From an uncultured Sphingorhabdus sp. (lineage in GTDB: Bacteria; Pseudomonadota; Alphaproteobacteria; Sphingomonadales; Sphingomonadaceae), in the NCBI GenBank assembly GCA_905479715.1, contig CAJQNR010000082.1:1-64000 (forward strand): a stretch of DNA of 64,000 bases. Reading direction: 5' to 3'. Below are positions 24,249 to 56,793 of the stretch, in pieces. The number at the start of each line of letters is the position of its first letter. The first letter of the stretch is position 1. Under the pieces are notes generated by a model that had not been told where the DNA came from, searched no databases, and saw nothing but the letters and a program-made list of their open reading frames with translations. The position numbers and the translations under genes are program-made.

Positions 24249-24946
24249 TAGGCCCGCTCCGCCTTGCTGCTGATATTTTCTACCAAGCCGTCGCGGAAAT
24301 GGATGATCCGGTGGGCATAGTCGGCCATTTCGGGTTCATGCGTCACCATCATGATCGTGATCCCGGCGTTGCGGTTGAAATCGGCAAGCAGTTCCATGAT
24401 TTCCATCGACGTTTCACTGTCGAGATTGCCGGTGGGTTCATCGGCCAACAACACTTCCGGTTCGGTCACGATGGCGCGGGCAATGGCCACGCGCTGCTGC
24501 TGTCCACCGGACAATTCTCCCGATGTATGGCTGGCCCAGGGCGCAAGGCCCACCTTGTCAAGCGCCGCCATCGCCGCGGCCCGCCGTGCCGCATGTTTCT
24601 CACCGCGATAGAGCAGTGGCAGTTCAACATTTTCCAGCGCGCTCGTCCGGGCAAGCAAGTTAAATCCCTGAAAGATAAAACCGATATATCGACGGCGCAA
24701 ATGGGCACGCTGATCATTGCTCAGGGCTCCGACCTCATGACCATGAAAACGATAGGTGCCCGTCGTTGCCACATCCAGGCAGCCGACGATATTCATCATC
24801 GTGGATTTGCCCGAACCGGAGGGGCCCATCACAGCGATAAAATCGCCCATGTTGACATCAAGATCAACGCCGCGAAGGGCCTTGAAGGCATTCGGCCCAT
24901 GACCGAAAACCTTGGTAATACCGCGGAGTTCAATCAGCCGCTTCAT
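24248..24946 (-). CDS. MacB-type ABC transporter ATP-binding protein (LolD-like)
   Basis: GPSGSGKSTMMNIVGCLD, LSGGQQQRVAIARAI, LLADEPTGNLDSETS. Confidence 0.95.
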   Translation of the reverse strand: MKRLIELRGITKVFGHGPNAFKALRGVDLDVNMGDFIAVMGPSGSGKSTMMNIVGCLDVATTGTYRFHGHEVGALSNDQRAHLRRRYIGFIFQGFNLLARTSALENVELPLLYRGEKHAARRAAAMAALDKVGLAPWASHTSGELSGGQQQRVAIARAIVTEPEVLLADEPTGNLDSETSMEIMELLADFNRNAGITIMMVTHEPEMADYAHRIIHFRDGLVENISSKAERA

Positions 24947-26253: not shown

Positions 26254-27785
26254 GGCTTGGTCCGTTCATTATCGGAGATCTGGTCGGGGTTTGACGCGGC
26301 ACCGGGCATATCCCAGCCGCCACCCAAAGCCTTGTAGAGCTGGATTGCAGCCGTAGCGCGGGCGGCAGTAGCGGATGTGAGGCTATCCTGGACGGTGAGC
26401 AGATCGCGTTGCGAACTGAGCAGAACCGTGAAGTCGCTCAGACCGTTGCGATAGTTGATCTCGGACATTCGCACGGCTTCCCGCGCGGACCGCTCCGCCG
26501 TTATCAGCGACGCTTCCCTTTCCCGCGATCGTTTGATGGCCACCAGACTATTTTCGACATCGCCGAGTGCGGTCAGCACCGTCCCGCGATAGATCGCCAG
26601 TGCCGCCGCTGTATTGGCTTTTTGCTGGTCTATCCCGGCGCGTATCTGTCCGCCCTGAAAAATCGGTGCGGTAACACTGCCGATCATATTGCCAATCACC
26701 GTATCGATCAGCCCGCCAAGTGAAAGGCTGTAGCTGCTCAATGACCCCGTAAGGCGCAACTGGGGATATAGATCTGCTTCCGCGACACCAATGAGCGCGC
26801 TTTCCGCTGCCAGATTTCGTTCGGCCTGGATGATATCGGGCCGTCTTTGCAGCAGACTGGCGGGAAGGCCTGCGCCAATATCATCGGGGCCGATGGCAAT
26901 CGGGCGCACAGGAGTCAGTTCCGCCATGCTGCTGCCCGGATTTTGGCCGGCAAGGATATCTATGTTATATATCGCGCCTGCAATTGTCTGCTCGATGACG
27001 GGCAAGCGCGCGGCTGTTTGGTCCCGCAGCGAACGGGCCTGCTCCACGTCCAGCGCACTGACCAGCCCCGCCTGATATCGCCACTGCGCTATTTGCAGAT
27101 TGGCATCCTGAATCATCAGATTGCTTTTCGTGACCGCTGATTGTGCCTGCGCTTCGCGGAGATCGACATAATTGAGCGCGACTTCTGCAAGGATCGTGCG
27201 CTGAACATTGTAAAGCGACGCCTCGCTGCTTTGGGCGCTGGCGCGCGCCGCGGCTTCCGACGCACGCAATCCGCCAAAAATATCCGCTTCCCAGGCGGCA
27301 TCCAGCCCAATTTGATAGCCGGTTGATTCGACGTCTGACCCTCTGATCACCTCCTGCCGATTGACCGATGCTCCCCCGGACAAGCTGGGCAACCGGGCAC
27401 CACGGGCTATTCTGACGCCGGCGCGCGCTGCGGCCAGCCGCGCCCGCGCTTCGGCAAGATCATTATTGGCAACCAGCGTCCGTTCAATCAGACTGCCAAG
27501 GATCGGATCATCGAAATTCTGCCACCAATCCGCCAGCGCCGCCGGTTCCATGGAGACATCGTCCTGACCGGAATAGGCATCGGGGAGCGGCATCGCCGTT
27601 TGCACAGCGACGTTATCATATCCTGGTGCGGCACAACCGATCAGCGGCACTGCGGCAATCATGATCACCTTCCCGCGGATTGCCCGGCGCGCAGACCGAC
27701 AATATCGTCGCATCAGCGTCGACCCCAGAAACCGTCCGCTGACAGGGGGCATGCCCACTTCCGGTTTGTGAGATTGCGGTATCAC
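26250..27785 (-). CDS. NodT-family outer membrane efflux lipoprotein
   Basis: Lipobox-like LIGCAAPGYD; WWQNFDDPILGSLIERTLVANNDLAEARARLAAARAG; RRPDIIQAERNLAAESALIGVAEADLYPQLRLTG. Confidence 0.93.
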   Translation of the reverse strand: MIPQSHKPEVGMPPVSGRFLGSTLMRRYCRSARRAIRGKVIMIAAVPLIGCAAPGYDNVAVQTAMPLPDAYSGQDDVSMEPAALADWWQNFDDPILGSLIERTLVANNDLAEARARLAAARAGVRIARGARLPSLSGGASVNRQEVIRGSDVESTGYQIGLDAAWEADIFGGLRASEAAARASAQSSEASLYNVQRTILAEVALNYVDLREAQAQSAVTKSNLMIQDANLQIAQWRYQAGLVSALDVEQARSLRDQTAARLPVIEQTIAGAIYNIDILAGQNPGSSMAELTPVRPIAIGPDDIGAGLPASLLQRRPDIIQAERNLAAESALIGVAEADLYPQLRLTGSLSSYSLSLGGLIDTVIGNMIGSVTAPIFQGGQIRAGIDQQKANTAAALAIYRGTVLTALGDVENSLVAIKRSREREASLITAERSAREAVRMSEINYRNGLSDFTVLLSSQRDLLTVQDSLTSATAARATAAIQLYKALGGGWDMPGAASNPDQISDNERTKP

Positions 27786-31211: not shown

Positions 31212-31581
31212 TCACCTTGTCACATTAACCGGCGGCGCGCGCAAGCAAGGTAAAATACTAATATCGGACAACTTGCTGGCCATGATGAAGCGTGATGTTT
31301 TCATGCAAAACGGTGGGTCCGTCCCGTTGGTTGGAACCAGTCGATAACGCTGAGACTGCGGACGGTCAGATCGTCGTTGCAGCAGCATTTCTGCCGATAA
31401 AGTCGGCTCTCCCGTTACGTAGATTCCACGAATGTAACGTCCGGAAAACATCTTTATCCATCGAATCTAGATATGAAACACAGTGCAATGCCACGCATGA
31501 GAAATCGATCATGCGGGACTGGAAACGGCAGCCCATCACCGGATGGCAGCCATCACCCAATCGAGAATCGAGGACGGACTG

Positions 31582-32925
31582 ATGAACAAACCGACCAAAT
31601 TGCGCCAGGAATCTCGCGTCGCTTCGGACGAACTGATAGCAGCGCTGCGCGACAATGCGGAGATCCTCCCGCCGCCGGAGAAATTCAACGAATTTGGAGA
31701 ATTTTTTGACCGGTTCGCCGATGCACAGGTGGTTTTGCTCGGTGAAGCCACCCACGGCACATCGGAATTTTATAATGCCCGCGCGGCGATAACCCGGCGG
31801 CTTATCGAAAAGCACGGCTTTACCGTTGTCGCCGTCGAAGCGGATTGGCCCGATGCCGCGAGGATTGACGGCTATGTCCGCCATCATGACCCGCGACCGC
31901 GCAGCGGCGACAGTTTCGTGCGCTTTCCGACATGGATGTGGCGCAATCAGGAGGTTCTGGCATTCGCCGACTGGCTCCGCCATTATAACGATGGCAGGAA
32001 GGATATTGCGCAGGCCTCGTTTCACGGTCTGGACGTGTACAGCCTGAGCGAGTCGATTGTGGCGGTTCTGGAATATCTTGATGCCGTGGACCCCGACGAA
32101 GCCGCCCGGGCCCGTTGGCGCTATGGCTGCCTGACCCCATGGCAGGACCATCCGGCAGAATATGGCAAAGCCGTGATCCATGGCCAGCAGCATCCCTGCG
32201 AAGATGCTGCGGTCGAACAAATACATCAGCTCTTTTGCAAACGCTTGGAATATATCGAAAATGATGGCGAGAAATGGTTTGATGCTGCGCAAAACGCGAA
32301 AATCGTGGCCGCCGCCGAACGTTATTATCGGGCCATCTATCAAGGCAGCGCCGCGTCTTGGAACCTGCGGGATCGCCATATGTTTGAAACGCTGCAGGCC
32401 ATTATTGCCCATCGCGGCGTTGGCACCAAGGCGGTTGTCTGGGCCCATAATTCCCACATTGGCGATGCGTCGGCGACCGCAATGGGCTGGCGCGGCGAGT
32501 TCAACATTGGGCAGCTCGCCCGAATCGCTTATGGCGATGACGCTGTCTGCATCGGCTTTGGCACGGATAACGGCACGGTCGCTGCGGCCAGCGACTGGGG
32601 CGCGGATATGCAGATCAAGACAGTCCGTCCGGCGCGCCCCGACAGCTACGAGCATGCCTTTCGCCTGACCGGCTATGGCCGCTCGCTCACCGACTGGCGC
32701 GGACGGGAGAAACAGAAATTTGCCCATATGTTGCGCGAGCCCCTGCTCGAACGCGCAATCGGCGTCGTCTATCGCCCTGAAACCGAGCTCGCCAGCCACT
32801 ATTTTGAAGCGATTCTGGCGGACCAGTTTGATGCCTATATCTGGTTTGAAACCACCAAGGCGATCACGCCGCTCGGCCATGAAAAGCCGCTTGGTGCACC
32901 CGAAACCTATCCGTTCGGCCTGTAA
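31582..32925 (+). CDS. erythromycin esterase-like protein
   Basis: LLGEATHGTSEFYNARAAITRRLIEKHGFTVVAVEADWPDAARIDGYVR; VVWAHNSHIGDA; start MNKPTKLRQES. Confidence 0.92.
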   Translation: MNKPTKLRQESRVASDELIAALRDNAEILPPPEKFNEFGEFFDRFADAQVVLLGEATHGTSEFYNARAAITRRLIEKHGFTVVAVEADWPDAARIDGYVRHHDPRPRSGDSFVRFPTWMWRNQEVLAFADWLRHYNDGRKDIAQASFHGLDVYSLSESIVAVLEYLDAVDPDEAARARWRYGCLTPWQDHPAEYGKAVIHGQQHPCEDAAVEQIHQLFCKRLEYIENDGEKWFDAAQNAKIVAAAERYYRAIYQGSAASWNLRDRHMFETLQAIIAHRGVGTKAVVWAHNSHIGDASATAMGWRGEFNIGQLARIAYGDDAVCIGFGTDNGTVAAASDWGADMQIKTVRPARPDSYEHAFRLTGYGRSLTDWRGREKQKFAHMLREPLLERAIGVVYRPETELASHYFEAILADQFDAYIWFETTKAITPLGHEKPLGAPETYPFGL

Positions 32926-32935
32926 GGAACACAAT

Positions 32936-33586
32936 ATGACCCAGCATGTTCTTGAAGAAATAAAACCGTCTGAAATTGAAATCACGCCGGTCGGACTGCG
33001 GGCGATTTTTGCCGTTCCGCCCAACGCGACCGGTATAGTCATTTTTGCCCATGGCAGCGGCAGCGGGCGGCTGAGTCCACGCAATAATTATGTTGCCTCC
33101 GCGCTGCGCGACGATGGTTTCGGCACATTGCTGATCGACCTGCTGACGCCGGCAGAGGAACAGGACCGGGCCAATGTTTTCGATATCGGTCTGCTCGCCT
33201 CACGCCTGTCCATGGCGGCCCAGTGGGTGCGGGCGCAATGGTCCGCCGCGGAGATGCCGATCGGATATTTCGGAGCCAGTACCGGCGCGGGTGCCGCGCT
33301 CGTGGCCGCCGCTCGCGATGAGCCGGAAGTGGCCGCAATTGTCTCACGGGGCGGTCGTCCCGATCTTGCCGGTGCATGGCTCAGCAATGTCCAGACGCCG
33401 ACTCTGCTTCTGGTCGGAAGCCGCGACGGACCGGTGATCGGACTTAACAAACAGGCTTTTGATGCCATTCCGGCACCGAAACGAATGACGATCATCAACG
33501 GTGCGGGCCATTTGTTCGAAGAACCGGGAACACTGGAAGAAGTCATTGTCCACGCGAGCGCATGGTTTAGCGCCTATTTCCATTGA
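32936..33586 (+). CDS. dienelactone hydrolase-like alpha/beta hydrolase
   Basis: VIFAHGSGSGRLSPRNNYVASAL; IGYFGASTGAGAALVAAA nucleophile elbow; start MTQHVLEE. Confidence 0.9.
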   Translation: MTQHVLEEIKPSEIEITPVGLRAIFAVPPNATGIVIFAHGSGSGRLSPRNNYVASALRDDGFGTLLIDLLTPAEEQDRANVFDIGLLASRLSMAAQWVRAQWSAAEMPIGYFGASTGAGAALVAAARDEPEVAAIVSRGGRPDLAGAWLSNVQTPTLLLVGSRDGPVIGLNKQAFDAIPAPKRMTIINGAGHLFEEPGTLEEVIVHASAWFSAYFH

Positions 33587-36175: not shown

Positions 36176-38326
36176 TTAATTGTTGAGCGAAGCTTCGCTG
36201 CGGAACAATCTGGTCAGGCTATTCATAAAACCGCCCGCCAAGGAGCGTCCCGATGCAGAAATTTCGACGACACCTGGGGTGACCTGTAGCATCGCCCCCT
36301 CCTTATATGACTTTTTGGAAGCAACGAGCCGAATGCGGTAGAGAGCGGTGCGGGGCCGTATAATATTTTCGTCCTTATCGGATGCGATCGGCCCACCATT
36401 GATCGATGCCAGTATCGGTTGATCCAGCCGCTCAACCGCATTTGTTGATTTCGCGACCAGCTTGGCCGCTCTCGATGGCTGAACCGGATCATCGGGAACA
36501 AATCGTCCACGCGCGTCTTCCTTTATACGCCAGATATCATTTTCGTTTACATAAGCTTGAATATCATAATCGTCCGACGTGACGATATGGGCGATTGTTT
36601 CTGTTCCCCCAAGCCAGCGGCCGTTATGGATATCCGGCGAGAGGTCAGTGACAATGCCAGCGAAAGGTGCACGCAGGATCAATCGCTCGCCGCGCAACTC
36701 GAGACCGCTTAGCTGGTCCTGTTCCTGCTTCAGTTGCCGCTCCACCACCATCCGATTGGACAGATCGATATTGTCCGCCGCCCCTCGACCATATTGCAGT
36801 TGCAAATTGGCAATCCGGACCTTGGCCGCTGCGGTGGCGTTTGCGAGTTCCGGGGCGGAAATCTGTATGAGAGGCGCACCGGCGGCGACGCGTTGGCCGT
36901 TACGGACAAATATCTTTTCCACCCTTCCCGGGTCTCCCGCTATCACCGGAGAGGCGCCGATGGGGGCTAGAACCGCTGGTGCGCTGATATGTCGATCAAG
37001 TGGCAACAGACATAACACTAGTGCAATGCCGACACTTATCAACAATAGGCGCGTTCGTGATGTCGCCAATATCCGCTCTTTCATACTCACCCAAATCTTG
37101 AATTCGGCAATGACCGGTCGCGCGATAAAGACTGTAATTTCAACGAAAAACAGGATCAAACCGAGGATTTTGAAGAATAATGTATAAACAAGCAGAGCGA
37201 TACCGATGAACAGTATCAGCCGATACACCCACGTCATCCACGCATAGGCAATCATCCCGCGGCGCAATTTATGTGGCACCTGTTCCGGCGCTTCATCGTT
37301 TAGAGCAAATAATAATTCGCGAAGCTTCCATTTCCCCAGCGCAAAGGCTCGCGGTTGCAGATTGGGGACGCCGAGCCAGTCGGACAAAAGATAATAGCCG
37401 TCAAAACGCATGAACGGATTGAGGTTGATCGCGAGGCTCATCAGCCAGCTGGTCGTTGCGAGAATGAAGGCGACGCTTCGCACCATCCCATCAGGTAGAA
37501 ACACCCAAGCCATGGTCGCTACGCCTGCAACCATCAATTCCACTGCGACCCCTGCACAGTCTATCATCAGCCTTTGTTTGCGCGAAGTCAGTCGCCATGC
37601 ACCCGACGTGTCAGTATAGAGCACCGGCATCATGACCAGAAAGCTGACCCCCATACTGGGCACGCGGCAACCGAAACGCGTCGCGGTATAGGCGTGGCCT
37701 AGCTCGTGAAGGACTTTTATGGCGAAAAGCCCTATTCCATAAGCAACCAGGCCCTGCCAGCTGAAGAAATACAGGAAGGAGGCCAGAAAACTATCCCATT
37801 GACGGGTGACCAGAAATAGTCCGCTCAAAGCCAATAGCGCAAAGAAAATCAGAGCAGGGAAGGACCAGAGCGGAGCGACTTTATCAATCGTGCGTTCGAG
37901 AAATGCAGCGGGTTTGACAATCGGTATCCGGATGAAAAGATAATTATCCAGCATCCACTTCCACCACTGTTTTTTTGCTCTTTGCCGCTGTTCCGTAAGG
38001 CCAGCGACCGTATTCCCGATTGGCGTTACGGTGAGGCTGTTGGACAAGGAAAACTCTACCACTCTCCCGAAGGCAGCATTTATCTGCTCTTCATCCAGAC
38101 CTTCACCGGCCAGATCATCATTGACCTTCACTAGGTCACCCGAAGCCCATCGGGAGAGAATGCGATATTCTATCCTGCCCAGTTGAAAAAACAGATGCCG
38201 CAACGGGTCAAACAACGTCCAGCTTGGCGCGCCATTGATCAAAGCCGCGCCGGGTTCGATCCGAAGCTCTTGCCTCAATGGAGGCAGTAAAGGCCGTTCC
38301 GGCTCCGCGGACGCGCTGACAGTCAA
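36176..38326 (-). CDS. M50 site-2-type membrane metalloprotease fused to HlyD-like biotinyl-lipoyl/adaptor domain
   Basis: HELGHAYTATRFG (HExxH) and NPFMRFDGYYLLSDWLGVPNL motifs, many TM segments, then GRVEKIFVRNGQRVAAGAPLIQI...LILRAPFAGIVTDLSP adaptor hairpin. Confidence 0.92.
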   Translation of the reverse strand: MTVSASAEPERPLLPPLRQELRIEPGAALINGAPSWTLFDPLRHLFFQLGRIEYRILSRWASGDLVKVNDDLAGEGLDEEQINAAFGRVVEFSLSNSLTVTPIGNTVAGLTEQRQRAKKQWWKWMLDNYLFIRIPIVKPAAFLERTIDKVAPLWSFPALIFFALLALSGLFLVTRQWDSFLASFLYFFSWQGLVAYGIGLFAIKVLHELGHAYTATRFGCRVPSMGVSFLVMMPVLYTDTSGAWRLTSRKQRLMIDCAGVAVELMVAGVATMAWVFLPDGMVRSVAFILATTSWLMSLAINLNPFMRFDGYYLLSDWLGVPNLQPRAFALGKWKLRELLFALNDEAPEQVPHKLRRGMIAYAWMTWVYRLILFIGIALLVYTLFFKILGLILFFVEITVFIARPVIAEFKIWVSMKERILATSRTRLLLISVGIALVLCLLPLDRHISAPAVLAPIGASPVIAGDPGRVEKIFVRNGQRVAAGAPLIQISAPELANATAAAKVRIANLQLQYGRGAADNIDLSNRMVVERQLKQEQDQLSGLELRGERLILRAPFAGIVTDLSPDIHNGRWLGGTETIAHIVTSDDYDIQAYVNENDIWRIKEDARGRFVPDDPVQPSRAAKLVAKSTNAVERLDQPILASINGGPIASDKDENIIRPRTALYRIRLVASKKSYKEGAMLQVTPGVVEISASGRSLAGGFMNSLTRLFRSEASLNN

Positions 38327-39717
38327 AATCCAACCGTTTGTCTTAGGCTTGCGATCGGACGTTTGAGAAGGGAATACAATAATGGCACCCGTTCGCCATA
38401 AAGCTTCGCAGTGCCGCGTGAACCAATGCGCGGTCTATCGGAAACCGGCTCTGCTAAGACCGCAAAAGCCAATATGCCTTCAGCCGTCTGGCGGGCCTGA
38501 TAGCTCGCATATTTGACTTTGCCTTCAATCGCCCACAATGGCTGTGCATCGAGCCATAGCTTAACCCGTGATCCGCGATTAAGGGCCATTTGCTCCGCCG
38601 CTGGCAAGTCAATTCGGAGCGCTATCTTTCCGGGGTCCGCAACCTGTAAAATCGGATCGCCGACATTGACGGCCCGCCCTTCCCAATCACGACGATCACT
38701 ATAGATCGCCATCCCGGATCGCGGGGCTTTGATCGCTGCCAGATCCATAACATCATTGGCAAAACCATAATCTGCCTGGGCCAGATCATATTCAGCGCGC
38801 AGCGTGGCAATCTCGCGTGTTTCATCATCTTTGCCAAACGCAGAACTGGTCGAACGATCCACACGGGCTTTCGCCACAGCCAGTTTCTCTTCCGCGAGCT
38901 TCAGTTCATTGGACAGCTTCACATCATCGAAAGAAACCAGCAATTCGCCTTCCTCGACCGCCGCGTTGGGCGCAACGTGAATACGCGATATCACCCCGGA
39001 AAACGGGGCCGCTACCGTGAACGGACGTTCAGCGACAACTTCCACCGGAGCAAGAGCTGTCATTCTCACCGGAAACAAAGCTATCACTAGCAAGGCAACC
39101 GAGACTCCAATTTTCTCCTTGCGACCAAAACGACCAATCCGTTTTACCGGCTTTTCGCCGGTAAGTGCCCGCCAGCTATGTGATACCGTTTCCGATATCC
39201 GCGTGAGGCGAAAATTCTCACCCTCCCGAAACATCGTTTCCCGCATTAGCAAAAGTCCGGCGAAGACCTTTCCTTCCCTGTCGAGAAGCGGCTGCCAGCG
39301 GCACTGTCCAAAAGGATATTCAGCAAGCGCGGCATCATCCCCCATCGCAGCAAGCGCGAAGTCGTGGGGTCGATCAAGACCGTCGGTTGCAGCAAGTTTG
39401 CTGATCAGCTTTTCCATCGCCTGAATCAGTGGTGTATTGCGATCTACCGAGGATATGCTGGAGGCACAGATTATATGATAATCGTCGCCTATGCGGGGCT
39501 GACGCGCGATGAACATCTGGTCATAAGGTAGAATACGACGCATTTCATTCGCGACATGATAGTGGAGTTCGGCAACGCTGCCCTGGCGCCGGATCTCCGC
39601 TTCAAACTGCAGCAAACCGGCCAGCACATTCGCGTCGCCGGAAACAGGAGCTGCCCCCGAAGCAAGCGGTAATATCGCAATGGGCGCACCTTGCGGGTCA
39701 GGAGGGCTCGCGGCCAT
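38323..39717 (-). CDS. HlyD-like periplasmic adaptor with extended cytosolic (GAF-like?) N-terminal domain
   Basis: About 200-aa soluble N-terminus, single TM (VSVALLVIALFPV), then FTVAAPFSGVISRIHVAPNAAVEEGELLVSFDD...IKAPRSGMAIYSD; overlaps both neighbours by a few bp. Confidence 0.85.
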   Translation of the reverse strand: MAASPPDPQGAPIAILPLASGAAPVSGDANVLAGLLQFEAEIRRQGSVAELHYHVANEMRRILPYDQMFIARQPRIGDDYHIICASSISSVDRNTPLIQAMEKLISKLAATDGLDRPHDFALAAMGDDAALAEYPFGQCRWQPLLDREGKVFAGLLLMRETMFREGENFRLTRISETVSHSWRALTGEKPVKRIGRFGRKEKIGVSVALLVIALFPVRMTALAPVEVVAERPFTVAAPFSGVISRIHVAPNAAVEEGELLVSFDDVKLSNELKLAEEKLAVAKARVDRSTSSAFGKDDETREIATLRAEYDLAQADYGFANDVMDLAAIKAPRSGMAIYSDRRDWEGRAVNVGDPILQVADPGKIALRIDLPAAEQMALNRGSRVKLWLDAQPLWAIEGKVKYASYQARQTAEGILAFAVLAEPVSDRPRIGSRGTAKLYGERVPLLYSLLKRPIASLRQTVGF

Positions 39718-40678
39718 CGGCTTTCGCTGCTCCCGATTTGACCGTCGTTTTCACCGGTGATTTTTCAGCAGCTCCGGTCACGGCGGGAGCATCTGACGGC
39801 TTTGTAAAAATGCCCGTTCCACTCATCCCGGGAAGGATAAGACTGTCGGTCTTGTCGACGCTGCCGGTAACGCGGATTGTTTTGCTGACGGGATCAACCG
39901 ATGCGCCCAACCGGGTAATCTGCCCGGTTACGTCCGCTCCCGTCTCATCAATCTTGAACGTGAAGTCAGCTCCGGGGCGCAACCAGGTTAGCCAGTTGCT
40001 CGGCACAATCAGTTCAACTTCCAGATCACCCCCGCTTTGGATTTTCAGCAGCGGTTGACCACTGGCCGCGATTTCTCCGCGATGACCGATTTCCTCAACA
40101 ACCGTTCCAGAAAAAGGAGCATATACGGCACAGTCGGACAGATTGGCCTTTATCGCGTTAGCCTCGGCATTGGCTTTGCCCAAATTGGCCTTTGCTACTG
40201 CGACTTCATTCTTGCCAATCGCCTCATATTGATCGAGCTCAACGTTGGTCTGATAGGTAACATTATAGGCATTGGAGGCAGCTTGCGCGGCTTTCAGCTC
40301 TGCACGGATCGCCGAACAGTCAAATTGCGCCAACAATGCACCTTTTCGGAAACTGCGCCCTTTGCCAAAAGGCATGGAAGTAATCCGGGCCGTCATCCGC
40401 GATGCAATTGTGGATTCCTGCTTGGGCTTGATTACCCCGCGCACGTCGGGGTCGGGTTCTGCTTCAGGCTTGTCGGCGATCTTGTTGCCCGTTTCAGCGG
40501 CAGATTGATTGGCAGCATCTGGCGTGGCCGGATTGCTCGACCAGTCAGTGCCATCTCCTCCGTTCGCGAACGCGAGCCCGACGATTGCGGCAAGCGCAAT
40601 TCCACCGCCCCAGAACCAGGGGGTCATCGATTTCTTCTCAGGATCCGAAGCTGTTTCCCCGGTTTCATCGTTCATCAA
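39698..40678 (-). CDS. HlyD/RND-type periplasmic adaptor
   Basis: N-terminal TM, GVIKPKQESTIASRMTARITSMPFGKGRSFRKGALLAQFDCSAIRAEL, YAPFSGTVVEEIGHRGEIAASGQPLLKI. Confidence 0.88.
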   Translation of the reverse strand: MMNDETGETASDPEKKSMTPWFWGGGIALAAIVGLAFANGGDGTDWSSNPATPDAANQSAAETGNKIADKPEAEPDPDVRGVIKPKQESTIASRMTARITSMPFGKGRSFRKGALLAQFDCSAIRAELKAAQAASNAYNVTYQTNVELDQYEAIGKNEVAVAKANLGKANAEANAIKANLSDCAVYAPFSGTVVEEIGHRGEIAASGQPLLKIQSGGDLEVELIVPSNWLTWLRPGADFTFKIDETGADVTGQITRLGASVDPVSKTIRVTGSVDKTDSLILPGMSGTGIFTKPSDAPAVTGAAEKSPVKTTVKSGAAKADGREPS

Positions 40679-40698: not shown

Positions 40699-42192
40699 CT
40701 ATTTATCGAGCTGCATCGCTGCTTCCCGATCCCGCCACAGCTTGGCGAGCGAACTGGTCAAGCTGGTCACATCTTCGCGTCCGGTCAGATCCGGAGCGAA
40801 ATCGTCGATGCCCATTGAAGCAAAGAGATTGGCATAGGCATTCTGTGCCTCTGCATAGGCGATGTCATATTTGACTTCTGCCACCAGCGTATTCATTTCC
40901 TCGCGCAACAACGTCTGCTGGCTCATCGCGCCGGCTTTGTGGCCCGAGCGGATCTGGTAGAGAATTTTTTCCTGCACCCGATGCTGATGCTCAGCGGTCT
41001 GTAGTTCCTGCTGCAAATGGCCAAAGCGCGCCCGCGATACGTGGACCTGAGTCATGACCGCCATTGTCAGCGCCAGTTCGCGTTGACGCAATAGATCGTC
41101 CTGCGCCCGCACGGCCTTTTTCTTAGGGCCCATTTTGAACAGGTTCAATACATTCCAGCTGGCCTGGGCGCCATATTGGAACCAGTTGTTGTTGAACAGA
41201 AAGTCGTTGGAATCGACGTTGACGCCCAAAATACCGCGAAAACTGGGCAGCGCTGACAACAAGGCTGCATCGAGCTCCTTACTGTTTATCCGTTGACGGT
41301 AGCTGACTTCACGCAATTCCGCGCGATTTTTCAGAGCGGTCATCATCATATCTTCACCGCTGTATCGAACCGCGGGCAAATTGTGGGTACGGTCCGGCAA
41401 TACCAGCGAGAAATCGGTGCCGGGTCGCAGGTTCATCAAAGCCGCCAGCTGCGCCTTGGCGACAACCAGTTCGCGCTGCAATTTGCGGATTTCAGCCTGT
41501 ATCTGAACAAGTTCACGCTGATAGGTAAGAGCGGTAAGCGGCGCCGACAACCGGCGCTCTGAAAGCCGTTCGCTGTTTTCGAGAGTAGTCGTCACATTAC
41601 CCTCCAGCTCTTCCAGCTTGTTGAGCAATCGCTCTGCGCTAACGGCACGCCAGTAAGAGGTGCGGACATCTTCGATAATGCGGTTTGCGACCTTGCGGCG
41701 GCGTTCCTGAGAGATCAGAAATTCATCTGCCTTTTGCTGGGAACGGACGTAGGACAATCCAAAATCAAGCACATCCCAGCTCAAGGATAAGTCGCCAGTA
41801 AAAATATCACGCTCGGACGAAGTTGACGGTTCGAGAGACTGGCGGCGCGTGATCAGGGAAAGTGAACTTGCGCCCGAAAAATTGTTCCGTCCGGCATAGC
41901 CGGCATTGGCGACAAGTTGAGGCAACATATCATAGCGCGACAAGTTCAACTCTCTGGTCTTCAGGGCCTCTTCCATCAACTCGACTTTGTAATCGAGATT
42001 ATATTTTAGCGCCCGGGCCATGGCTTGATAGAGATCGATTGGCGCGGATACCGGCTCCTGTTCCGCATCGACCGCAATGATATTTTCGCGTGCTGTCGAG
42101 TCGATCTGCGAGGGTGTGAGCGGTTTGGGGGTAACGGCGCAACCGGCCAATAAGGCTACCGCCGAACAGCTTAGAACAAGTTTCTTATCCAT
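40699..42192 (-). CDS. TolC-family outer membrane protein
   Basis: Lipobox-like LLAGCAV; long helical OEP-type repeats; adjacent to adaptor genes. Confidence 0.85.
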   Translation of the reverse strand: MDKKLVLSCSAVALLAGCAVTPKPLTPSQIDSTARENIIAVDAEQEPVSAPIDLYQAMARALKYNLDYKVELMEEALKTRELNLSRYDMLPQLVANAGYAGRNNFSGASSLSLITRRQSLEPSTSSERDIFTGDLSLSWDVLDFGLSYVRSQQKADEFLISQERRRKVANRIIEDVRTSYWRAVSAERLLNKLEELEGNVTTTLENSERLSERRLSAPLTALTYQRELVQIQAEIRKLQRELVVAKAQLAALMNLRPGTDFSLVLPDRTHNLPAVRYSGEDMMMTALKNRAELREVSYRQRINSKELDAALLSALPSFRGILGVNVDSNDFLFNNNWFQYGAQASWNVLNLFKMGPKKKAVRAQDDLLRQRELALTMAVMTQVHVSRARFGHLQQELQTAEHQHRVQEKILYQIRSGHKAGAMSQQTLLREEMNTLVAEVKYDIAYAEAQNAYANLFASMGIDDFAPDLTGREDVTSLTSSLAKLWRDREAAMQLDK

Positions 42193-42208: not shown

Positions 42209-45200
42209 CTAAGCTTTAAACGCGGCAAGCAGCTGCGCGGTTTCATCAGCGACACTGGCATCTGCCAATGCGACGGTGCTCGCCAATGGCACGGCACCTC
42301 TTGTGTTTTGAGAAAGATCGCGTTTTTCATCGATCTGAATTTCTCCCGTCGATCCTTGAATAATAACCGGAATCTCAGTGATTTGACCATCGGCGCGAAT
42401 AGCGCGCACGATCAGTCGAACGGTTTCTGCATCGACCGGGCGCTCGATGATTGCCAGGCCACGAGCGTCCATGCGGATCCAGCTTGGGAGCGGGCTACCA
42501 TCGCGGGTACGCAATTGATATTCAATCATCCGGGGCGCGCTTTCGGCACCAATATCGCGGATTTCCATATAAATGACCCGGTCACGAACGACCGATTCAA
42601 TCATCACTTGGTCACTACCCGTAGCAAGTTGACGCACCGAAAATCCGGTCAGGCCTTCGGTAAGGAAATCACCGAAGCGTGGATCGAACAGGCGATCTGC
42701 TCCGAAACGTAGATCCCGGATTTTATCGAGCTGCTTGACGACTTGGTCGATCGGACCTTCAGCGCTGTCCAGCTCTCCGATGCCGTTCAACGAACGCAAT
42801 CCGTTTATGGCCGTCAACAGTGGTCGGTTCCCGTTGAGATCTGACAAGCCGCTTAACGAACGGAAGCTGTTCACGGCATCGCTGATGATCAAGGGAGTTG
42901 AAATGAATTTGTCTAACGGATCCACGCTCGTGCTCGGCAACGGACGATCCGGGAAGCCGGGATCATTGGCACCAAGCAGGTCATTCACATTGGCATTGGC
43001 CTGTGTGACGATAATCGTTGCCGTGGATTGATCATATCCGCCGTTACCATCGCTGACAATATAAGTGATTGTCGCAACGCCCTGAAATTCGGGTGGCGCA
43101 AAATGGGAAATGGTTCCGTCAGGGTTAATCACCACCGTTCCGACATCAACTTTGGCCGTAAACACGCTGAGCGTTTCTCCATCGGGGTCACTGCCATTGG
43201 TCAACACATCGACAATCGTTTCCGCGCCGCCAATGCCAAACATTTCTTCGTTACCATCGACCGGCACTTCATTGACGTTGCGGACGGTGACAGAAACGGT
43301 CGCGGAGGAGGTGCCACCATTGCCGTCGCTAATTGTATAATCGATCGTATCAGTGCCGAAAAAGTCCACATTCGGCGTGTAAGTGATTGTACCATCGGCA
43401 TTGATTGCCACCGTGCCATTGGCCGCAACCGCGTTGGTCACCGTCAGCGGATCTCCGTCGAGATCGATGTCATTGGCCAACACCGGAATGACCAGCGGAA
43501 CTTCTTCTTCGGTATCAGCAATATCATTACTGGCAATTGGCGGATCATTGACCGCGGTGACCGTCACGGTAATCGTTGCGGTGGTGAAGCCTCCATTGCC
43601 ATCGCTTAGCTGATAAGTGATCACATCGGTGCCGCTGAAATTTGGATCAGGCGTATAAGTGACTGTTCCATCGGGATTGATCGTCACTGTACCATTTGGC
43701 GATGATGCGCTGATAATAGTCAGCGGATCACCATCGATGTCGCTGGCTTTATCAAGCGGCGATAGCTCGATTGGCGTATCTTCTGTTGTAATCACTACAT
43801 CAGGACTGGCTACCGGAAGATCGTTGACCGGAGTAACGTTGACCGTCACGACTGCCGTGGAAGTCCCTCCCTTGCCGTCGCTGATCTCATAACTGATGGT
43901 CGTAATTCCGTTGAAATCCGCATCGGGTGTGAACGTAATCGTCCCATCAGCATTAATTGTGACGGAGCCATTGGGCGAAGCCGCTGCGGTCACCGTCAAA
44001 GGATCACCGTCCGCATCCGTATCGTTCCCGAGGACCGGAATAATCACTGGCGCATCCTCGGGCGTTGAAACATTATCGTTCACTGCCGCCGGGATATCGT
44101 TCACCGCATTGACTGTGATCGTGGCTGTCGTTGTTGCGAAACCGCCCTTTCCGTCGGACACCGTGTAGGTGATAATATCGGTGCCGTTGAAATTCGGCTT
44201 CGGCGTATAAGTCACGGTGCCGTCGGCGTTGATAACAACAGTACCGTTAGGCGCACTGGCTGCCGTAACCGTCAACGGATCGCCGTCAGCATCGGTGTCA
44301 TTGGACAGAACAGCGACGGTAACCGGCGTATCTTCATCAGTCTGGTCAATATCAGGCACCGCGACTGGAGCGTCGTTTACGGGATTAACCGTGAGAGTGA
44401 CCGTCGCCGTTGCGGTACCGCCCTTACCGTCGCTAATCGTATAAGTGACTGTGGTGACGCCATTGAAATCCGGATTTGGCGTGAACGTCACAGTACCATC
44501 CGCATTGATCGTGACCTGACCATCGGGCGACGTTGCGCCGGTCACCTTCAGTGCATCGCCGTCCACATCGCTGTCATTCGAAAGGACAGAAATTGTTACC
44601 GGCGTGTCTTCTGGCGTGGTCGCTACATCATCACTGGCTACCGGCGGATCATTGACCGGGTTCACTGTCACCGTAACCGTTGCTGTTGCCGTTCCGCCCT
44701 GCCCGTCACTGACAACATAGGTTATGACGTCGATTCCGTTGAAATCCGGATCGGGCGTATATTCAATCGTACCATCGGCATTGATCGACACCGTGCCATT
44801 GGGTGCGATTGCGCTGATGACCGTCAACGGATCACCGTCCACATCGCTATCGTTGGACAGCACAGAAACCGTAACCGGTGTTTCTTCATTGGTGACGGCA
44901 ATATCGTTGACCGCGACCGGTGGGTCGTTGACCGCGCCGACAGTGACCGTAACCGTTGCTGTCGCTGTTCCGCCATTGCCATCGCTGATCGTGTAGACAA
45001 TCGTATCAATACCGTTGAAATCAGGATCAGGCGTATAGTCGATAGTACCATCGGGCCGTATCACGATCGTGCCTTTGGCAGCGCTGGCGCTTGTAACACT
45101 CAGCATGTCGCCATCAGGATCGGAGTCATTTGCCAGAACCGGTATATTGACAGGCAAGTCTTCGGCGGTAGACGCGCTGTCATTGACAGCCACCGGAACA

Positions 45201-48200
45201 GGATTGGTTATGGTCCAGGTAAAGGACTGGTCAACCGTGCCCCCTCGGCCATCATTTGCCGTTACGATAACCGAATATATGCCACCAGCAGGCTGACTGG
45301 CATCTTTGTCGATCATGCCCGAGATTATCCCGGTGGTGGAATCAATGGAAAGCCCCAGCGGCAATCCCGTCGCGGAAAAGCTAAGCGGGTCGCCATCGAC
45401 ATCGGAAAAATTGGCGGCCACTGGTACGGAAACCACAGCACCATCAAGCGCATTGCGCGGCGCGATAGGGTTGGCCACCGGTGCGTCATTCACCGATCCC
45501 ACAACGATGTCGACGGTTGCCGTAGAGGTGCCGCCATTGCCGTCACTGATCGTATAGGTGATCGTGTCGGGACCGTTATAATCGGGATCCGGCGCGTAAT
45601 TTAACGTTCCATCCGGGTTGACCGTCACATCGCCATGACCGGCCGAAACCAGTGTCACGGTCAGCATGTCACCGTCAGGATCAACGTCATTGCCAAGGAC
45701 ATCTATATCCAGCGGCGTATCTTCGGTTACCGCAATCGGTCCGTCATTACTGGCAACAGGCGGCGGGTTCGTGACGGTCCAGTTAAAGGTGGTGGAAACG
45801 GTCCCCCCGTTGCTGTCATCAGCGGTGATCGTGACGCTGTAAATACCATCACCATTCGGTCCACCCTGTGAAGCCGATGGATCAATCGTACCGGTAATAT
45901 TGCCCGCGGCGTCAATGTTCAGCCCTGGCGGTAGGCCCGTTTGCGTAAAGGTCAGAGGGTCACCGTCCAAATCGGCAAAGGCGCCGCTGATATCCAGTGC
46001 AATCAGGTCCGCATCGGCATTTCCCAAAGCCGATAGCGGCGTAACCGTCGGCGCATCATTTGCAGCGCCAACGGTGACGGTGACGGTTGATGTCGAACTT
46101 CCACCCTGTCCATCGCTGATCACATAGGTGATCGTGTCCGTCCCGTTGAAATTTGCTTTGGGTGTATAGGTTAACGTTCCATCCGGATTGATCACCACCA
46201 CACCATTGGGCGCGCTTGCCGCAGTGACCGTCAAGACATCCCCGTCAGGATCATTATCATTGGTCAGAACATCGATTGGCACCGAAGCCGTATCTTCGGT
46301 GGTCGCGGCAAGATCGCTATTGGCTGTGGGGCCCGGATTGGTAATCTTCCAGATAAAGCTTTGCGCCGTTTCCAGACCGCCATCATCGGTTGCGGTAATT
46401 TCAACCTGATAGACGCCGCCGTTTAACTGACTCGCGTCCGGCCCGATGATACCGGTTATTTCACCGGTGATCATGTCGATAGACAAGCCATCCGGGAGAT
46501 TAGTCGCCGTGAAGGTCAAGGCGCCGCCTTCGGGATCACTGTATAATGCCCCGAAATCGATGTTGACGGGGTCACCGTCCTTGCTGTCGCGATTGGGCAG
46601 AATTGTGCCGTCTGGAGCGTCGTTCACCGGATCGACAACGATTGTAGCGACAGCGGTTGCAAGGGCGCCATTGGCATCCTGGATTGTATAAGTCACGGTC
46701 GCCGTGCCATTGAAATCCGGATCCGGCGTAAAGTTGATCGTGCCGTCCGCCAATATCACTGCCGTTCCATGGGTCGCAACCGCGGAAATAATCTCTATCG
46801 GGGTCATCGGATCTGCATCGGGATCGACGTCATTGGCCAGTACATCGAGATTGATCAGCGTGTCTTCGGTGCCGATATAATTGTCGTTATTGGCCCGCGG
46901 GGGTTCATTGGTGATGGTCCAGGTGAATGTCGTGCTCACCATTTCGCCCGCGGCATCGGTTGCGGTCACGGTTACCGTATATAGACCGTCCAGAACGTCG
47001 GATGAGGCGGTTGCACTCGTCGTCCCGGACACTGTGCCGGTAGCTGGATCAAAGGTCAGGCCCGCGGGCAATCCGGTTATATTATATGTCAATGTTGCGT
47101 CATCAGCGTCGCTAAATGCCGAACCCAGCGGGACTGTGATATCTTCGTTGTTTGAGTCAAACAGGTCGGGCAATCCCGCCGTTTCCGGTGCATCATTCAC
47201 GGCCGTCACGGTGACTTCAACCGAAGCGGTTGCGGTGCCGCCATTGCCATCGCTGATTGTATAGACGATCGTGTCTATGCCGTTGAAATTCGGATCCGGC
47301 TGATAAGTGAGCGTTCCATCCGCTTCGATGACCACCACACCATTGGCGCTATCAGCCGAAATTATTGTCAGATCGTCGCCATCAGGATCGCTATCGTTGG
47401 TTTGCACCGGAATGGTAACGGCGGTATCTTCGGCGGTCGCCGCCACATCATTGGCCGCAACCGGTGGGGGATTAATCACCGTCCATCTAAAGGTCGAGTC
47501 AACTGTGCCGCCATTGCCATCATCTGCGGTAACGGTAACGATATAAAGACCGCCATTCATCTGGCTGGCATCGGGATCAATCGTGCCGGTTATCAAACCA
47601 TCGGCATCGATAGAAAGCCCCGCTGGCAAACCGCTAGCGCTAAAACCAAGCGTGTCGCCATCGAGATCGTTGAAACTACCCCTTACGTCAACCGAGACAA
47701 GGTCGGCGTCATCATTGGTCTGATTATTAAGCGGAGGATCAGCGGTCGGCGCGTCGTTGATCGCAACCACTGTAACATCAACGGTTGCAGTTGACGTGCC
47801 TCCGTTGCCGTCATTAATCTGATAGGTGATAATATCAGTGCCGTTGAAATTGGCGGAAGGCGTATAAACCAGCGTATTGTCGGCATTGATAACAACCGTG
47901 CCGTCGAGTGCCGTTGCGCTCGTCACCGTCAGACTATCACCATCCGGATCGCTGTCGTTGGCGAGTACGACAATCGGCGCGGTAGGGGTATCTTCATTGG
48001 TCGTGGCGGTATCGTTTACCGCCGTTGGCGCCGGGTTGGTCACCACCCAGGTGAAACTGCCCTCCACCGTTCCGCCGTTGCCGTCGTCCGCGGTAATCGT
48101 AACCGTATAGACGCCGCCGTTGATCTGGCTGGCCTGGTTGTCAATCGTACCGGTGATCACACCATTGGCATCGATTGTCAGACCCGCTGGCAGTCCCGCT

Positions 48201-51200
48201 GCGGTGAAGGTCAACGTGTCGCCGTCAAGATCGCTGAACTTGTCGCTGATATCGACGGAGATAATCTCCGCATCTTTATTGGCCAGATCGGAAATCGGGA
48301 TATCGACTTCAGGTCCGTCATTAACCGAAGCAACTGTGACGTCGACCGTTGCAGTGGATGTCCCGCCATTGCCATCACTGACCGTATAAGTGATCGTGTC
48401 CGTTCCATTGAAATCCTGATTGGGAGTATAGTTAATCGTTCCATCGGGATTAATGATGACGCTGCCGTTGGGCGCCGTCGCAACAGTTACGGTCAGATCA
48501 TCGGCATCGGGATCAGTGTCGTTCGCCAGCACTGCGACCGTGACCGGCGTATCTTCGTCGGTCGCGACCATATCATTGGCGGCCGTAGGGGCGGGGTTGG
48601 TTACGGAATAAGTGAAGGTTGCAGAGACTGTGCCGCCATTGCCGTCATTGGCCGTAACCGTGACCGTATAGACACCGCCGTTAATCTGGCTCGCCTGGTT
48701 GTCAATCGTACCGGTGATCAGACCGGTACCGGGATCGATGCTCAGGCCCGCTGGCAATCCAGTGGCGGCGAAGGAAAGCGTATCTCCATCGATATCGCTG
48801 AAATTCCCTGCTGTCGGTATCGAAGGACTTCCGCCATCCACGTCTGCAATATTTGGCAACGGACGGGTGACAATCGGCGCATCATTGACCGCGGCAACGG
48901 ACACTTCAACAGTCGCCGTCGAGGTGCCGCCATTACCATCGCTGATACTATAGGTAATTATATCACTACCATTGAAATTGGCTTTGGGGGTGTAGGTCAC
49001 CGTCCCGTCCGGATTGATCACGACAAGGCCATTGGCTGCGGTGGCCGAGATCACGCTCAGCGTATCTCCATCGGGATCGCTGTCATTGCCCAGAACCGGA
49101 ATGATGACCGGCGTGTCTTCGTTAGTTGCTGCAACATCATTAGCCGCCAAGGGGGCCGGATTATTCACTTCCCACACAAAGGTCTGGTTGACAGTTCCGC
49201 CGTTTCCGTCGCTGACGGTCACTGTGACAGCATAAATGCCGTCGGAGCCGGGACCCCCTTGTGAGGCGTCTGGATCGATGGTGCCCGTAATATTGCCGGC
49301 AGCATCAATAGCCAGGCCGGCCGGTAATCCCGCAGCGGCAAAGCTCAGCATATCGCCATCAACATCTGAAAAATTGCTGGCGACCGACAGATTTATGACA
49401 TCCGCGTCATTGTCATTTTGCGGCGCTATGGGGGTTGTGACCGGAGCATCATTTGTCGCAGTTACCGTCACTTCCACGGTGGAAGTCGAGAAACCACCCT
49501 GTCCGTCGCTGATCGTGTAAGTGATCGTATCCGTGCCATTAAAGTTGGCATCAGGCACATAAATCACAGTGCCATCGGCATTGATCGTCACGGTCCCATT
49601 GGGAGCATCAGCAGCCGTGACGGTCAGTGGATCGCCGTCAACATCCGTGTCATTGGCCAGAACCGGAATATCAACCGGACTATCCTCGTCCGTGGTTATA
49701 CTGTCCATATTGGCGACCGGGGGATCATTGACAGCGTCGACCGTGACCGAAACGGTCGCCGTGGAAGTCCCGCCATTGCCATCGCTAATCGTATAACTGA
49801 TCGTTGTCGGACCATTGAAATCAGCATTGGGTGTGAAGGTAATCGTCCCATCGGCATTGATCACGACCACACCGTCAGGAGAAGTGGCGGCAGTCACGGT
49901 CAACGGATCGCCGTCTATGTCCGTATCATTGCCAAGAACACCGATCGTAACCGGCGTATCTTCATTGGTGGTTGCGGCATCATCAACCGCCACCGGCGGA
50001 TCGTTGACCGCATTGACAACCACTTCGACCGCAGCGGTAGAAACGCCACGATTGCCGTCACTGATCACATAGGTAATCGTATCCGTGCCATTAAAATTGG
50101 CATCGGGAGTATACGTCAGCACACCGGCGGCGCTGATTGTCACCGTACCATTCAGAGCGGTCGCCGCCGTCACAGTAAGCGGATCGCCGTCCGGATCGCT
50201 GTCATTGGTCAGCACCGTGATGTCGACCGGCGTGTCTTCGTTGGTAATCGCCGTATCGTTGACCGCAGTCGGCACCGGATTGGTTATCGTCCAGGTAAAG
50301 GTCCGGCTGGTGGACAGGCCATCGGGATCTGTACCGGAAACAGTGACCGAATAAACGCCGCCGCCGGGCTGACTCGCATTGCGGTCAATGGTCCCGCTAA
50401 TGATGCCCGTCGCCGGGTCTGCCGAAAGGCCGGCGGGAAGCCCCGTGACAGAAAAGGTCAGCGTGTCTCCGTCCAGATCGCTAAAGAAGCTGCCTGTATC
50501 AACCGAGACCGACTGGTTATCTTCGTTGGTAATATTTGGAATCAGGACGGAGTCCGGCGCATCGTTGACTGCAACAACATCGATGGTGAGAGTCGCAGTG
50601 GCAATACCGCCCTGCCCGTCAGACACGGTGTAGCTGACCACTGCTTCGCCATTGAAATTTTCCGCCGGTGTAAAAGTGAGAGTCCCGTCGGGATTGACGA
50701 CGACCGTTCCGTTCTGCGCACTTGCCGCTGTGATTGTTAACGGATCGCCATCGGGATCGAAATCATTCGTCAGCACGGCTACATTGACCGGCGTATCTTC
50801 CGGCGTGGTTGCTGTATCATTCACTGCAACTGGCGGAATATTCTGGATCGAATAGACAAAGGTGGTGGATACGGATTCGCCGGACGGATCGGTGGCCGTG
50901 ACGGTCACGATAAATGGTCCGGTAACGGAACTGTCAGAGGCCAGCATTCCGGAAATCAGACCGGTATCCGGATCGATCACCAATGCTGGCGGCAATCCCG
51001 ATGCGGTAAAGGTTAGATCGTCCCCATCAATATCTGAAAAACTGGAGGCCGTCGGGATAGAAACCTCCGCGCCGTCTTCCCCGTTCTGATTGGCCAGACC
51101 CACTGTGGTCGGGGCATCATTCACCGGAATCACCGTCACGGTGACGGTCGCGGAAGAGAAACCGCCCTCGCCATCACTGATCGTGTAAATGATAGTGTCC

Positions 51201-54200
51201 TCGCCGTTGAAATTGGCATTGGGCTTATAGGCCAGCGTACCATCTGCGTTAATGGTCACTGTGCCGTGACCGGCTTCAACATCGACAATGGTCAGCGCAT
51301 CACCGTCTACATCAGCATCATTGACGAGGATCGGGACATTAACCGCAGTGTCTTCGTTCGTCGTCACGCTGTCATTCTGGGCAACGGGTGCGGGATTGGT
51401 AACTGTCCACACAAATGTCGTCGATACGGTGCCGCCACGACCATCATCGGCATATACTGTTATCGTATAAGCACCGCCATTTATCTGGCTGGCACTATGA
51501 TCAATCGTACCCGATATAATTCCCGTAGCGACATCAATGGTCAGGCCCGCCGGCATGCCTGTCGCGCTATAGTTCAGCAGATCGCCATCGGGATCACTAA
51601 ACGCCCCTGCAATCGGCAGGCTGATGAGCTGGCTGTCGAGATTGCTTTGGTCGCCGATGCTTCCGTTGGCGATCGGCGTATCATTGATATCCGCAACAAT
51701 AACGGTAATTTCTGCAATTGAAGTCCCGCCCTCACCATCCGAGATTTCGTAGGTGATCGTGTCGGTGCCATTAAAGCCGGGATTGGGCGTATATATGATC
51801 GACCCATCGGCATTGATCGCTACAGCCCCGTTCAATGCACTGGCAGCGGTGATGGTCAGATCATCGCCATCGGGATCGCTGTCATTCGCCAGTGGGAAGA
51901 TAGTAACCGGTATGTCTTCATCGGTCGACGCACTGTCATTGACAGCATCGGGGCCAGGATTGACGACATCGAAGACAATAGCGCGCGTCGCCGTGCCGCC
52001 ATTGCCGTCAGAGGCTGTGATAATAGCGGTATAGGTACCGCCGCCTGTCTGGCTCGCGCTATTGTCAATCGTCCCCGAAATCACCCCGCTATCCGGATCA
52101 ATGGAAAGCCCGAGGGGCAGACCAGTCGCCGTAAAAGTCAATATATCGCCGTCTACATCGCTGAAATTGCCTGCAACCGGCACCGCGATGACAGCGCCAT
52201 CGACAGTATCCTGCAGCGGCAGCGCAGTGCCGACCGGCGCATCATTCACGGCAGTCACTGTAACTTCAATCGTCGCGGTCGCTGTACCACCTTCGCCATC
52301 GCTGATGGTATAGGTGATAGTAGCGATACCGTTGAAATTGGCCGGCGGGACATAGTTGACCTGATTGCCCACAATCGTGGCCTGTCCGACGGAAGCCGCA
52401 GCAGCGATCAAGCTGATAGGGTCGCCATCGGGATCGCTGTCATTCGGCAAGACATCAATCAGAATGGGCGTGTCTTCGCTGGTCACAGCGCTATCATTGG
52501 CCGCAACCGGTGCGGGATTGGAAACAGTCCAGCTAAATGTCTGTGTCGCACTAAGGCCGCCGGAATCAGTGGCTGTGACAGTGATCGCATATACGCCGTT
52601 CGAGCCACCCTGACTGGCGGAACGATCTACCACACCGGTAATCTCGCCCGTATTGGTGTCAATGCTGAGACCAGACGGCAGACCCGACGCGCTATAGGTC
52701 AGTGTCGCATCATCGCTGTCGGTAAATCCGCCAGCCGTTGCAACGCTAATACCGGTATCCGCGTCGATATTTGTCTGTGGCGGCAGCGAGCCTACCGGTG
52801 TGGGTGCATCGTTGACGGACGTCACCGTAACGTCGACTGTCGCCGTTGAACTGCCGCCTTCCCCGTCGCTTATCGTATAAGTAATAGAATCCGTGCCGTT
52901 AAATCCAGGGTTTGGCGTGTAGGTAATCGTGCCGTCACCATTGATATCGACCGTACCGTTCACAGCACTAGCTGCAATGACACTCAACAGATCACCGTCA
53001 GGATCACTGTCATTGGTTAGCACATTGACATTTACTGCTGTATCTTCATCTGTTGATGCGACATCATCGGAAGCGGTTGGCGCGGGATTGTTTACGGTCC
53101 AGGCGAATGTCTGGGTGGCAGGTGTAGATTGAAAATCGGTAGCCGTTACGGTGACGGTATACACACCATTAGCGCCGCCTTGGCTTGCGCTATTGTCGAT
53201 CGCACCGGTAATTTCGCCGGTATTGGAATTGATCGAAAGACCAGGCGGCAGTCCAGTTGCGCTATAATTGGTGGACGGGCCATCTACGTCATTAAAGCCG
53301 CTCGCCGTTGCGACGCTCACACCGGTGGTGGCATCGACATCAGACTGAGGTGGCAACACTCCGATCGGATTTGGCGCATCATTTACCGCCACTACGGTCA
53401 TTCTATAAACTGCGGTATCGGTTCCACCTTCGCCATCGCTAATCGTATAGGTAATAATGTCATTGCCATTAAAATTGGCATTGGGCGTATAGGTCAGCGT
53501 ACCATTTGCATTGATCACCACGATACCATTCGCGGCACTTGCCGATATAATGGTTAGATCGTCGCCATCGGGATCCCTATCATTGGCGAGCACATTAATG
53601 ATGATCTCAGAGTCTTCATTGGTGGAACCACCATCATCATTCGCTTCCGGTCTCGGGTTCGTGATCGTCCACGCAAAATCTTGCGTCGCAGACAGCCCGT
53701 CGGGATCAGTCGCAGTTACGACAATATTATAGACCCCGCCAGAACCGCCCTGACTGGCACTATTGTCAATCGTGCCGGTAATTGCGCCCGTGTTGGCGTC
53801 GATCGTCAAACCCGACGGCAAACCGATTGCACTGTAAGTCAATATGGCATCGTCAGCATCGTTAAAGCCTTGGGCCGTACCGACATAAATCCCTTGTGCG
53901 GCGTCTATATTGCTTTGCGAAGACAGGCTGCCTACCGGCATTGGCGCTTCATTCACCGGAGTGACGACAATCTCGACAGTGGCAACGGACTCGCCGCCTC
54001 GTCCGTCGCTGATCGTATACACAATGGTATCTAAACCGGAAAATTGCAGGATCGGTGTGTAATTCAAACTGCCGTCGGGGTTGATTACTACGGTCCCGTT
54101 GAGGGCCGTTGCCGAAATGACAGACAGCGTGTCACCATCGCCATCGAAATCATTCGCCAGCACGTTGATATTGTTAATCGGTGTATTTTCCGCAGTTATC

Positions 54201-56635: not shown

Positions 56636-56793
56636 CTGACTCTCCCGAACGTGCACATCAACCCAAACCCGTCAATGTGCCGCAACAGCTATAAATTACA
56701 CAATTAGCTAATGCCCTAGCTCGCTCTGTCTGACGCAGTAATACCAGAGAAGTATAAAGATCTGCAACGTCAAAACCTCAGAATTCCATAAAA

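Follow-up and report, generated by a model that had tools for sequence, protein, structure and literature searches.

An M50 protease-HlyD adaptor fusion with an RRE-like domain as a candidate leader-processing subunit in the export of giant surface proteins

The window analyzed here, a stretch of 64,000 nucleotides from an uncultured Sphingorhabdus sp., carries a tightly packed five-gene operon on the minus strand, in the order giant protein, TolC, HlyD, GAF-HlyD and, as its last gene, RRE-M50-HlyD. The operon and its features are as follows:

36176..38326, minus strand: RRE-M50-HlyD gene, 716 aa (open reading frame, Pfam, AlphaFold2)
36179..37000, minus strand: HlyD/MacA-type adaptor region with a short helical hairpin, residues ~443-716 (Pfam, AlphaFold2, PDB fold match)
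37127..37879, minus strand: M50 membrane protease region, residues ~150-400 (Pfam, NCBIfam, AlphaFold2, hydrophobic helices)
37397..37420, minus strand: second M50 motif NPFMRFDG, residues 303-310
37694..37708, minus strand: HELGH zinc site, residues 207-211
37997..38290, minus strand: RRE/PqqD-like N-terminal domain, residues ~13-110 (AlphaFold2, PDB fold matches)
38323..39717, minus strand: partner adaptor with a GAF-like N-terminal domain, one transmembrane segment and an HlyD domain
39698..40678, minus strand: second HlyD adaptor
40699..42192, minus strand: outer-membrane channel of the TolC family, lipobox-like at its N-terminus (LLAGC)
42209..56656, minus strand: giant surface protein with tandem-95 repeats (4815 aa), the proposed substrate
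55367..55822, minus strand: DUF4347 domain of the giant (Pfam, E 1.4e-46)
56564..56593, minus strand: leader motif LEPRMMFDGA near the N-terminus of the giant

The RRE-M50-HlyD frame starts with TTG and overlaps the stop of the preceding gene by 4 nt, and the giant contains 26 tandem-95 stretches. Between a phosphoglucomutase gene and the operon lies a 572-aa ORF (31366-33084, minus strand) that has no Pfam match and may shadow plus-strand ORFs.

The initial annotation described the product of 36176..38326 as an M50 protease fused to an HlyD-type adaptor. Both parts were borne out, with Pfam Peptidase_M50 (residues 198-300, E 1.5e-7) and HlyD_3 (residues 551-610, E 4e-8) scoring above their curated cut-offs. 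A structural model had been suggested as a check on the adaptor fold, whose absence would have counted against the initial reading. The AlphaFold2 model that we obtained from an 82-row alignment, sister class included, reached a mean pLDDT of 92.3 and a pTM of 0.81, and its C-terminal part matched MacA and MexA in the PDB at E 1e-12, so the adaptor part is genuine. Pfam and the fold match together reveal the barrel-sandwich and helical hairpin of an HlyD/MFP periplasmic adaptor. Seven hydrophobic helices separate the N-terminal domain from the adaptor, and they would place the former inside and the latter outside. The earlier reading had overlooked this N-terminal domain, which is RRE-like.

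HELGH (residues 207-211) and NPFMRFDGYY (from residue 303, position 37420) are both intact, as initially reported. Across 90 homologues (49 clusters that are less than 70% identical to one another), H207, E208 and H211 were invariant in 90/90, and so were P304, D309 and G310 of the second motif; N301 is invariant as well. FMRFDGYY was one seed of our genome scan, so the invariance of the second motif arises partly by selection, while that of HExxH is unaffected. The first Asn of NPFMRFDG does vary (N303 is N, S or T among the homologues), and here the motif reading had to be amended. The catalytic H, E, H and D were also invariant in the 82-row alignment including the sister class, and conservation along the chain peaks in the M50 segment, where it far exceeds that of the adaptor. 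With an HExxH in a membrane helix and a second motif providing an Asp zinc ligand (D309), the region has the features of an M50 (site-2) protease. An inactive M50 was rejected on the invariance of H207, E208, H211 and D309, and catalysis by this site is, on the evidence of the alignments, under selection.

RREs (PqqD/RRE fold) are domains that bind peptide leaders. In the AlphaFold2 model, the N-terminal domain (pLDDT >90) has the PqqD-like order of three strands followed by three helices. When this domain was compared with the PDB by Foldseek, the best 8 matches were all RREs (probability 0.98-1.00, E 0.016-0.09), from TbiB1 in complex with leader peptides and from a sactipeptide synthase that contains an RRE, and the next match had a probability of 0.2 or less; the top E value was only 0.016 despite a probability of 1.00. 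PDB matches came from the model-based search alone; a profile built from class A N-domain sequences (class A being the class of the window operon) found no chain there. Pfam PqqD made no call on the window protein and gave weak matches in 4 of 57 class A N-domains, whereas the N-domain of sister class B scores above the Pfam PqqD gathering threshold, and profile-profile comparison linked the window domain to the PqqD domain of that class at E 3e-9. The modeled N-domain thus adopts an RRE-type fold, with putative leader binding.

Relatives come from Alpha-, Beta- and Gammaproteobacteria and from Nitrospira, and the closest of them mark the window as part of a Sphingomonadaceae-like genome. Class A or B is present in 90 of the 399 genomes of the phylum sample, about a fifth. 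The order TolC-HlyD-GAF-HlyD-M50-HlyD was kept in 70 of the 74 loci with enough upstream DNA, and GAF-HlyD lay directly upstream of M50-HlyD in 75/75. The class A operon also occurs on E. coli and Citrobacter plasmids, where no ABC gene adjoins it; it is rare in E. coli (24 of 5426 complete genomes).

The giants encoded beside class A operons have an N-terminal motif in common, LExR(x)xFD[AG]A. Across 28 non-redundant giants, a basic stretch is followed by LExR, one hydrophobic and one arbitrary residue, F (Y in one case), D, either A or G, and A, a core whose invariance is partly by construction because its positions stood in the search pattern; a T usually follows four residues on, and then an acidic region. 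As a rule, the motif lies about 14-40 residues in, and it was seen even where the gene order was shuffled. In an independent test, we ran a degenerate DNA pattern over the same 399 genomes as the protein search, with the lists transcribed by hand, and found the motif in 57 of 77 class A genomes vs 3 of 322 without class A (Fisher p about 6e-48, a value that ignores kinship, as related genomes in the sample are not independent). The leader is thus tied to the machine, and 47 pairs of leader and class A machine share a contig at distances of 0.2-20.4 kb. One of the three exceptions is a 57%-complete genome, and the other two, reading FEKRRLFDGA and LEWRRLFDGA, are probably chance matches. Among the class A genomes that escaped the pattern are some with a variant motif, LERRIAFDAA in genome G338 being one. 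Within the fetched loci, no ordinary short ORF carried the motif; judged by position, each of the 11 shorter matches is a giant that was cut or broken. For the hitherto unread 7208-aa giant of genome G175, a leader was predicted and then found (LEPRMMFDAA). Short ORFs of 293 and 370 aa combining the leader with DUF4347 lie beside the operon in G568 (L153-L154) and at L084, and these may be broken giants or separate short substrates.

The conserved N-terminus of the giants looks, from its sequence, like a recognized leader. The initial annotation had proposed cleavage coupled to export, for example by release of an N-terminal anchor. The coupling is well supported by linkage, that is, by the conserved operon, the invariant catalytic residues and the common motif of the giants. 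The anchor was rejected on hydropathy, since the best 15-residue value of the leader is 0.55-1.91, with charged residues inside the motif; the hydrophobic stretch of the leader is shorter than would be expected of a classical S2P substrate.

To our knowledge, neither a function nor a partner has been assigned to the LEPR-XLL domain (NF012209). This model scored 14.7 bits on the full-length window giant, 20.4 on its N-terminal 46 aa alone and 20.1 in a six-frame genome search, against a cut-off of 17. The LExR(x)xFD[AG]A motif appears to be a form of the LEPR-XLL domain.

A tail resembling FxxQL...LLAAL was observed at the C-terminus of 17 of 27 class A giants (about 1.3 expected by shuffling) and is absent from the window giant. 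It could be a C-terminal export signal; the motif was chosen post hoc, and we kept it out of the support for our main claim.

Sister class B is 25-31% identical to class A over the M50-HlyD region. Its loci encode a larger GAF-HlyD, an HlyD and, in most cases, a SecA paralogue of ~670 aa with DEAD, P-loop and preprotein-binding domains. The class B giants carry a canonical LEPR-XLL above the NCBIfam cut-off (e.g., LEDRVLLSAD and LEPRLLLAAD). Altogether, 14 LEPR-XLL matches above cut-off were obtained in 13 genomes, all in open frames of 2,850-15,251 aa, and 12 of these lie, by their coordinates, next to an M50-HlyD operon. The form of the leader therefore follows the machine class, being FD[AG]A in class A and the canonical xLL[SA]A in class B. 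The SecA paralogue stands beside PqqD-M50-HlyD and LEPR-XLL giants at L171, L172, L173, L176-L178, L180, L182, L183, L185 and L189-L191. The LEPR-XLL giants of G881, G293, G303 and G768, at 10,000-15,251 aa, are among the largest bacterial reading frames.

The class A operon itself encodes no motor. An HlyD adaptor and a TolC channel, two features of type I secretion, are present; the third, an ABC motor in the inner membrane, was sought and not found, and by its defining features the machine is therefore not a type I system. A conserved neighboring ABC transporter was rejected, as ABC-like ORFs of at least 450 aa were found within about 10 kb at none of 79 loci. In the window, about 8.4 kb downstream of the M50-HlyD gene, there is a MacAB-TolC type ABC efflux operon (23046-27785, minus strand) that includes an adaptor and a TolC of its own and is not conserved beside the relatives. 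Since sister class B has a SecA paralogue to itself, the chain probably crosses the inner membrane by SecA/SecYEG; the lack of an ABC gene of type I size in the 79 loci also favors Sec. The tested class A genomes without class B have one full-length SecA copy.

In our proposal, to which we give slightly better than even chances, RRE-M50-HlyD is the subunit that recognizes and processes the leader in an exporter dedicated to a single giant surface protein. The cytoplasmic RRE domain would bind the LExRxxFD[AG]A leader, and its fold would explain how the M50-HlyD protein finds that leader; recognition by the RRE is supported indirectly. The membrane-embedded M50 site would cut in or just after the leader, at a position and time that we can only infer. 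The chain would cross the inner membrane probably through SecA/SecYEG, and the periplasmic HlyD part, together with the separate HlyD and GAF-HlyD adaptors, would form a bridge to the TolC channel, through which it would leave. Against this reading stand the absence of a motor of its own in class A, the RRE missed by Pfam in the window protein, the Foldseek E of 0.016, the FxxQL tail and the short hydrophobic part of the leader. A broader proposal, which we advance more tentatively and regard as possible rather than probable, is that of a secretion route of a categorically different kind, widespread among Pseudomonadota and Nitrospira, in which RRE, site-2 protease and adaptor in one chain read and remove LExR/LEPR-XLL leaders, powered not by an ABC motor but by Sec (housekeeping SecA in class A, the SecA paralogue in class B).

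The main rival to this proposal, which we hold to be unlikely, is a retention/release switch as in LapA/LapG, in which the giant would be exported first while the RRE keeps hold of its leader at the inner membrane and so tethers it to the cell, until M50 frees it on a signal sensed by the GAF domain of the partner adaptor. The GAF-like domain on the obligatory partner adaptor and the position of the leader at the extreme N-terminus would suit such a switch, and the motif conserved in the C-terminal tails of many giants is what C-terminus-first export would predict. Yet export in that direction would need a motor, absent from the operon, the window giant is devoid of the C-terminal motif, and the sister-class SecA fits N-terminal entry better. 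A second rival invokes an ABC transporter whose gene lies elsewhere in the genome; type I secretion would then move the giant, and RRE-M50-HlyD would only trim the leader, much as bacteriocin exporters do with their C39 peptidase domain. The adaptor and TolC fold are common to type I systems, and the operon at 23046-27785, with adaptor and TolC of its own, is only about 8.4 kb away. That operon, however, is MacB-type and not conserved, the 0/79 count speaks against a neighboring ABC gene, and on the E. coli and Citrobacter plasmids the M50-HlyD operon travels as a unit with no ABC gene adjoining. We consider this explanation a shade less likely still than the retention switch.

Two further explanations concern the M50 domain itself. 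M50 enzymes are commonly regulatory, and the intact catalytic site would also be expected of a conventional S2P that cuts another membrane protein (e.g., an anti-sigma factor) and is merely fused to an adaptor; this appears very improbable to us, given that the gene comes last in a conserved operon of adaptors and TolC whose proposed substrate is a giant and that an RRE fold was found rather than a PDZ domain. Alternatively, the M50 fold might have given up proteolysis and serve the giant as a scaffold or channel in the inner membrane, an idea that draws on class A operons encoding no other translocase component for that membrane. In a pure scaffold, one would not expect the zinc ligands, the catalytic Glu and the Asp of the second motif to be invariant in 90/90, and we rate this as the least probable of the four.

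The component families are known, and we found no description of their combination in the open literature; an RRE-M50-HlyD/giant-protein system was absent from the openly licensed literature that we searched, and a paper behind a subscription may have been missed. As in type I systems (HlyBD-TolC, LapBCE), there are a TolC-family channel, HlyD-type adaptors and very large repetitive surface substrates; unlike in those, the operon is without an ABC transporter, M50 and an RRE are fused to one adaptor, and the substrate has an N-terminal leader. The closest M50 families by NCBIfam are RiPP leader-processing proteases, namely daptide_HExxH (NF041824; residues 110-401, E 2e-45, 155 bits, below the 300-bit equivalog cut-off) and YydH/LiaK (E 1e-8, below the equivalog cut-off), peptidases that are likewise linked to leader-bearing substrates. 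The window M50 differs from them in its fusion to an HlyD adaptor and in a candidate substrate of thousands of residues instead of a small peptide. PqqD, TbiB1 and CteB resemble the N-domain in fold, and PqqD in homology via the sister class, but here the domain, with its putative leader binding, would guide an exporter/protease and not a peptide-modifying enzyme. LapA-LapG-LapD offers the parallel of a giant adhesin whose N-terminus may be under proteolytic control, with a possible small-molecule sensor (GAF); its protease is the cysteine protease LapG rather than an M50 membrane metalloprotease, and it has a periplasmic retention module in place of a leader at residue ~20-40. The window and sister-class leaders exceed the LEPR-XLL cut-off in peptide and genome searches, and, unlike the domain as catalogued, they are tied to a specific machine. 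If our reading holds, the LEPR-XLL domain gains a partner and a function, RiPP-style leader recognition serves proteins of 2,000-15,000 residues, and giant surface proteins have an export route without a type I motor.

The large Ig-like giants on the E. coli and Citrobacter plasmids recall the Big (Ig-like) proteins of IncHI plasmids, large exported proteins of enterobacterial plasmids whose export has been credited to the plasmid type IV system (PMC6764697, PMC8730810). We considered these papers as a prior description and rejected them, as HlyD, TolC and type I secretion are all unmentioned there. In the complete Citrobacter plasmid copy, the giant is a 4465-aa Ig-like protein, and GAF-HlyD is annotated as two pieces. 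In addition, IS elements lie close to the operon and the giant Ig-like gene on the E. coli and Citrobacter plasmids (L095, L096).
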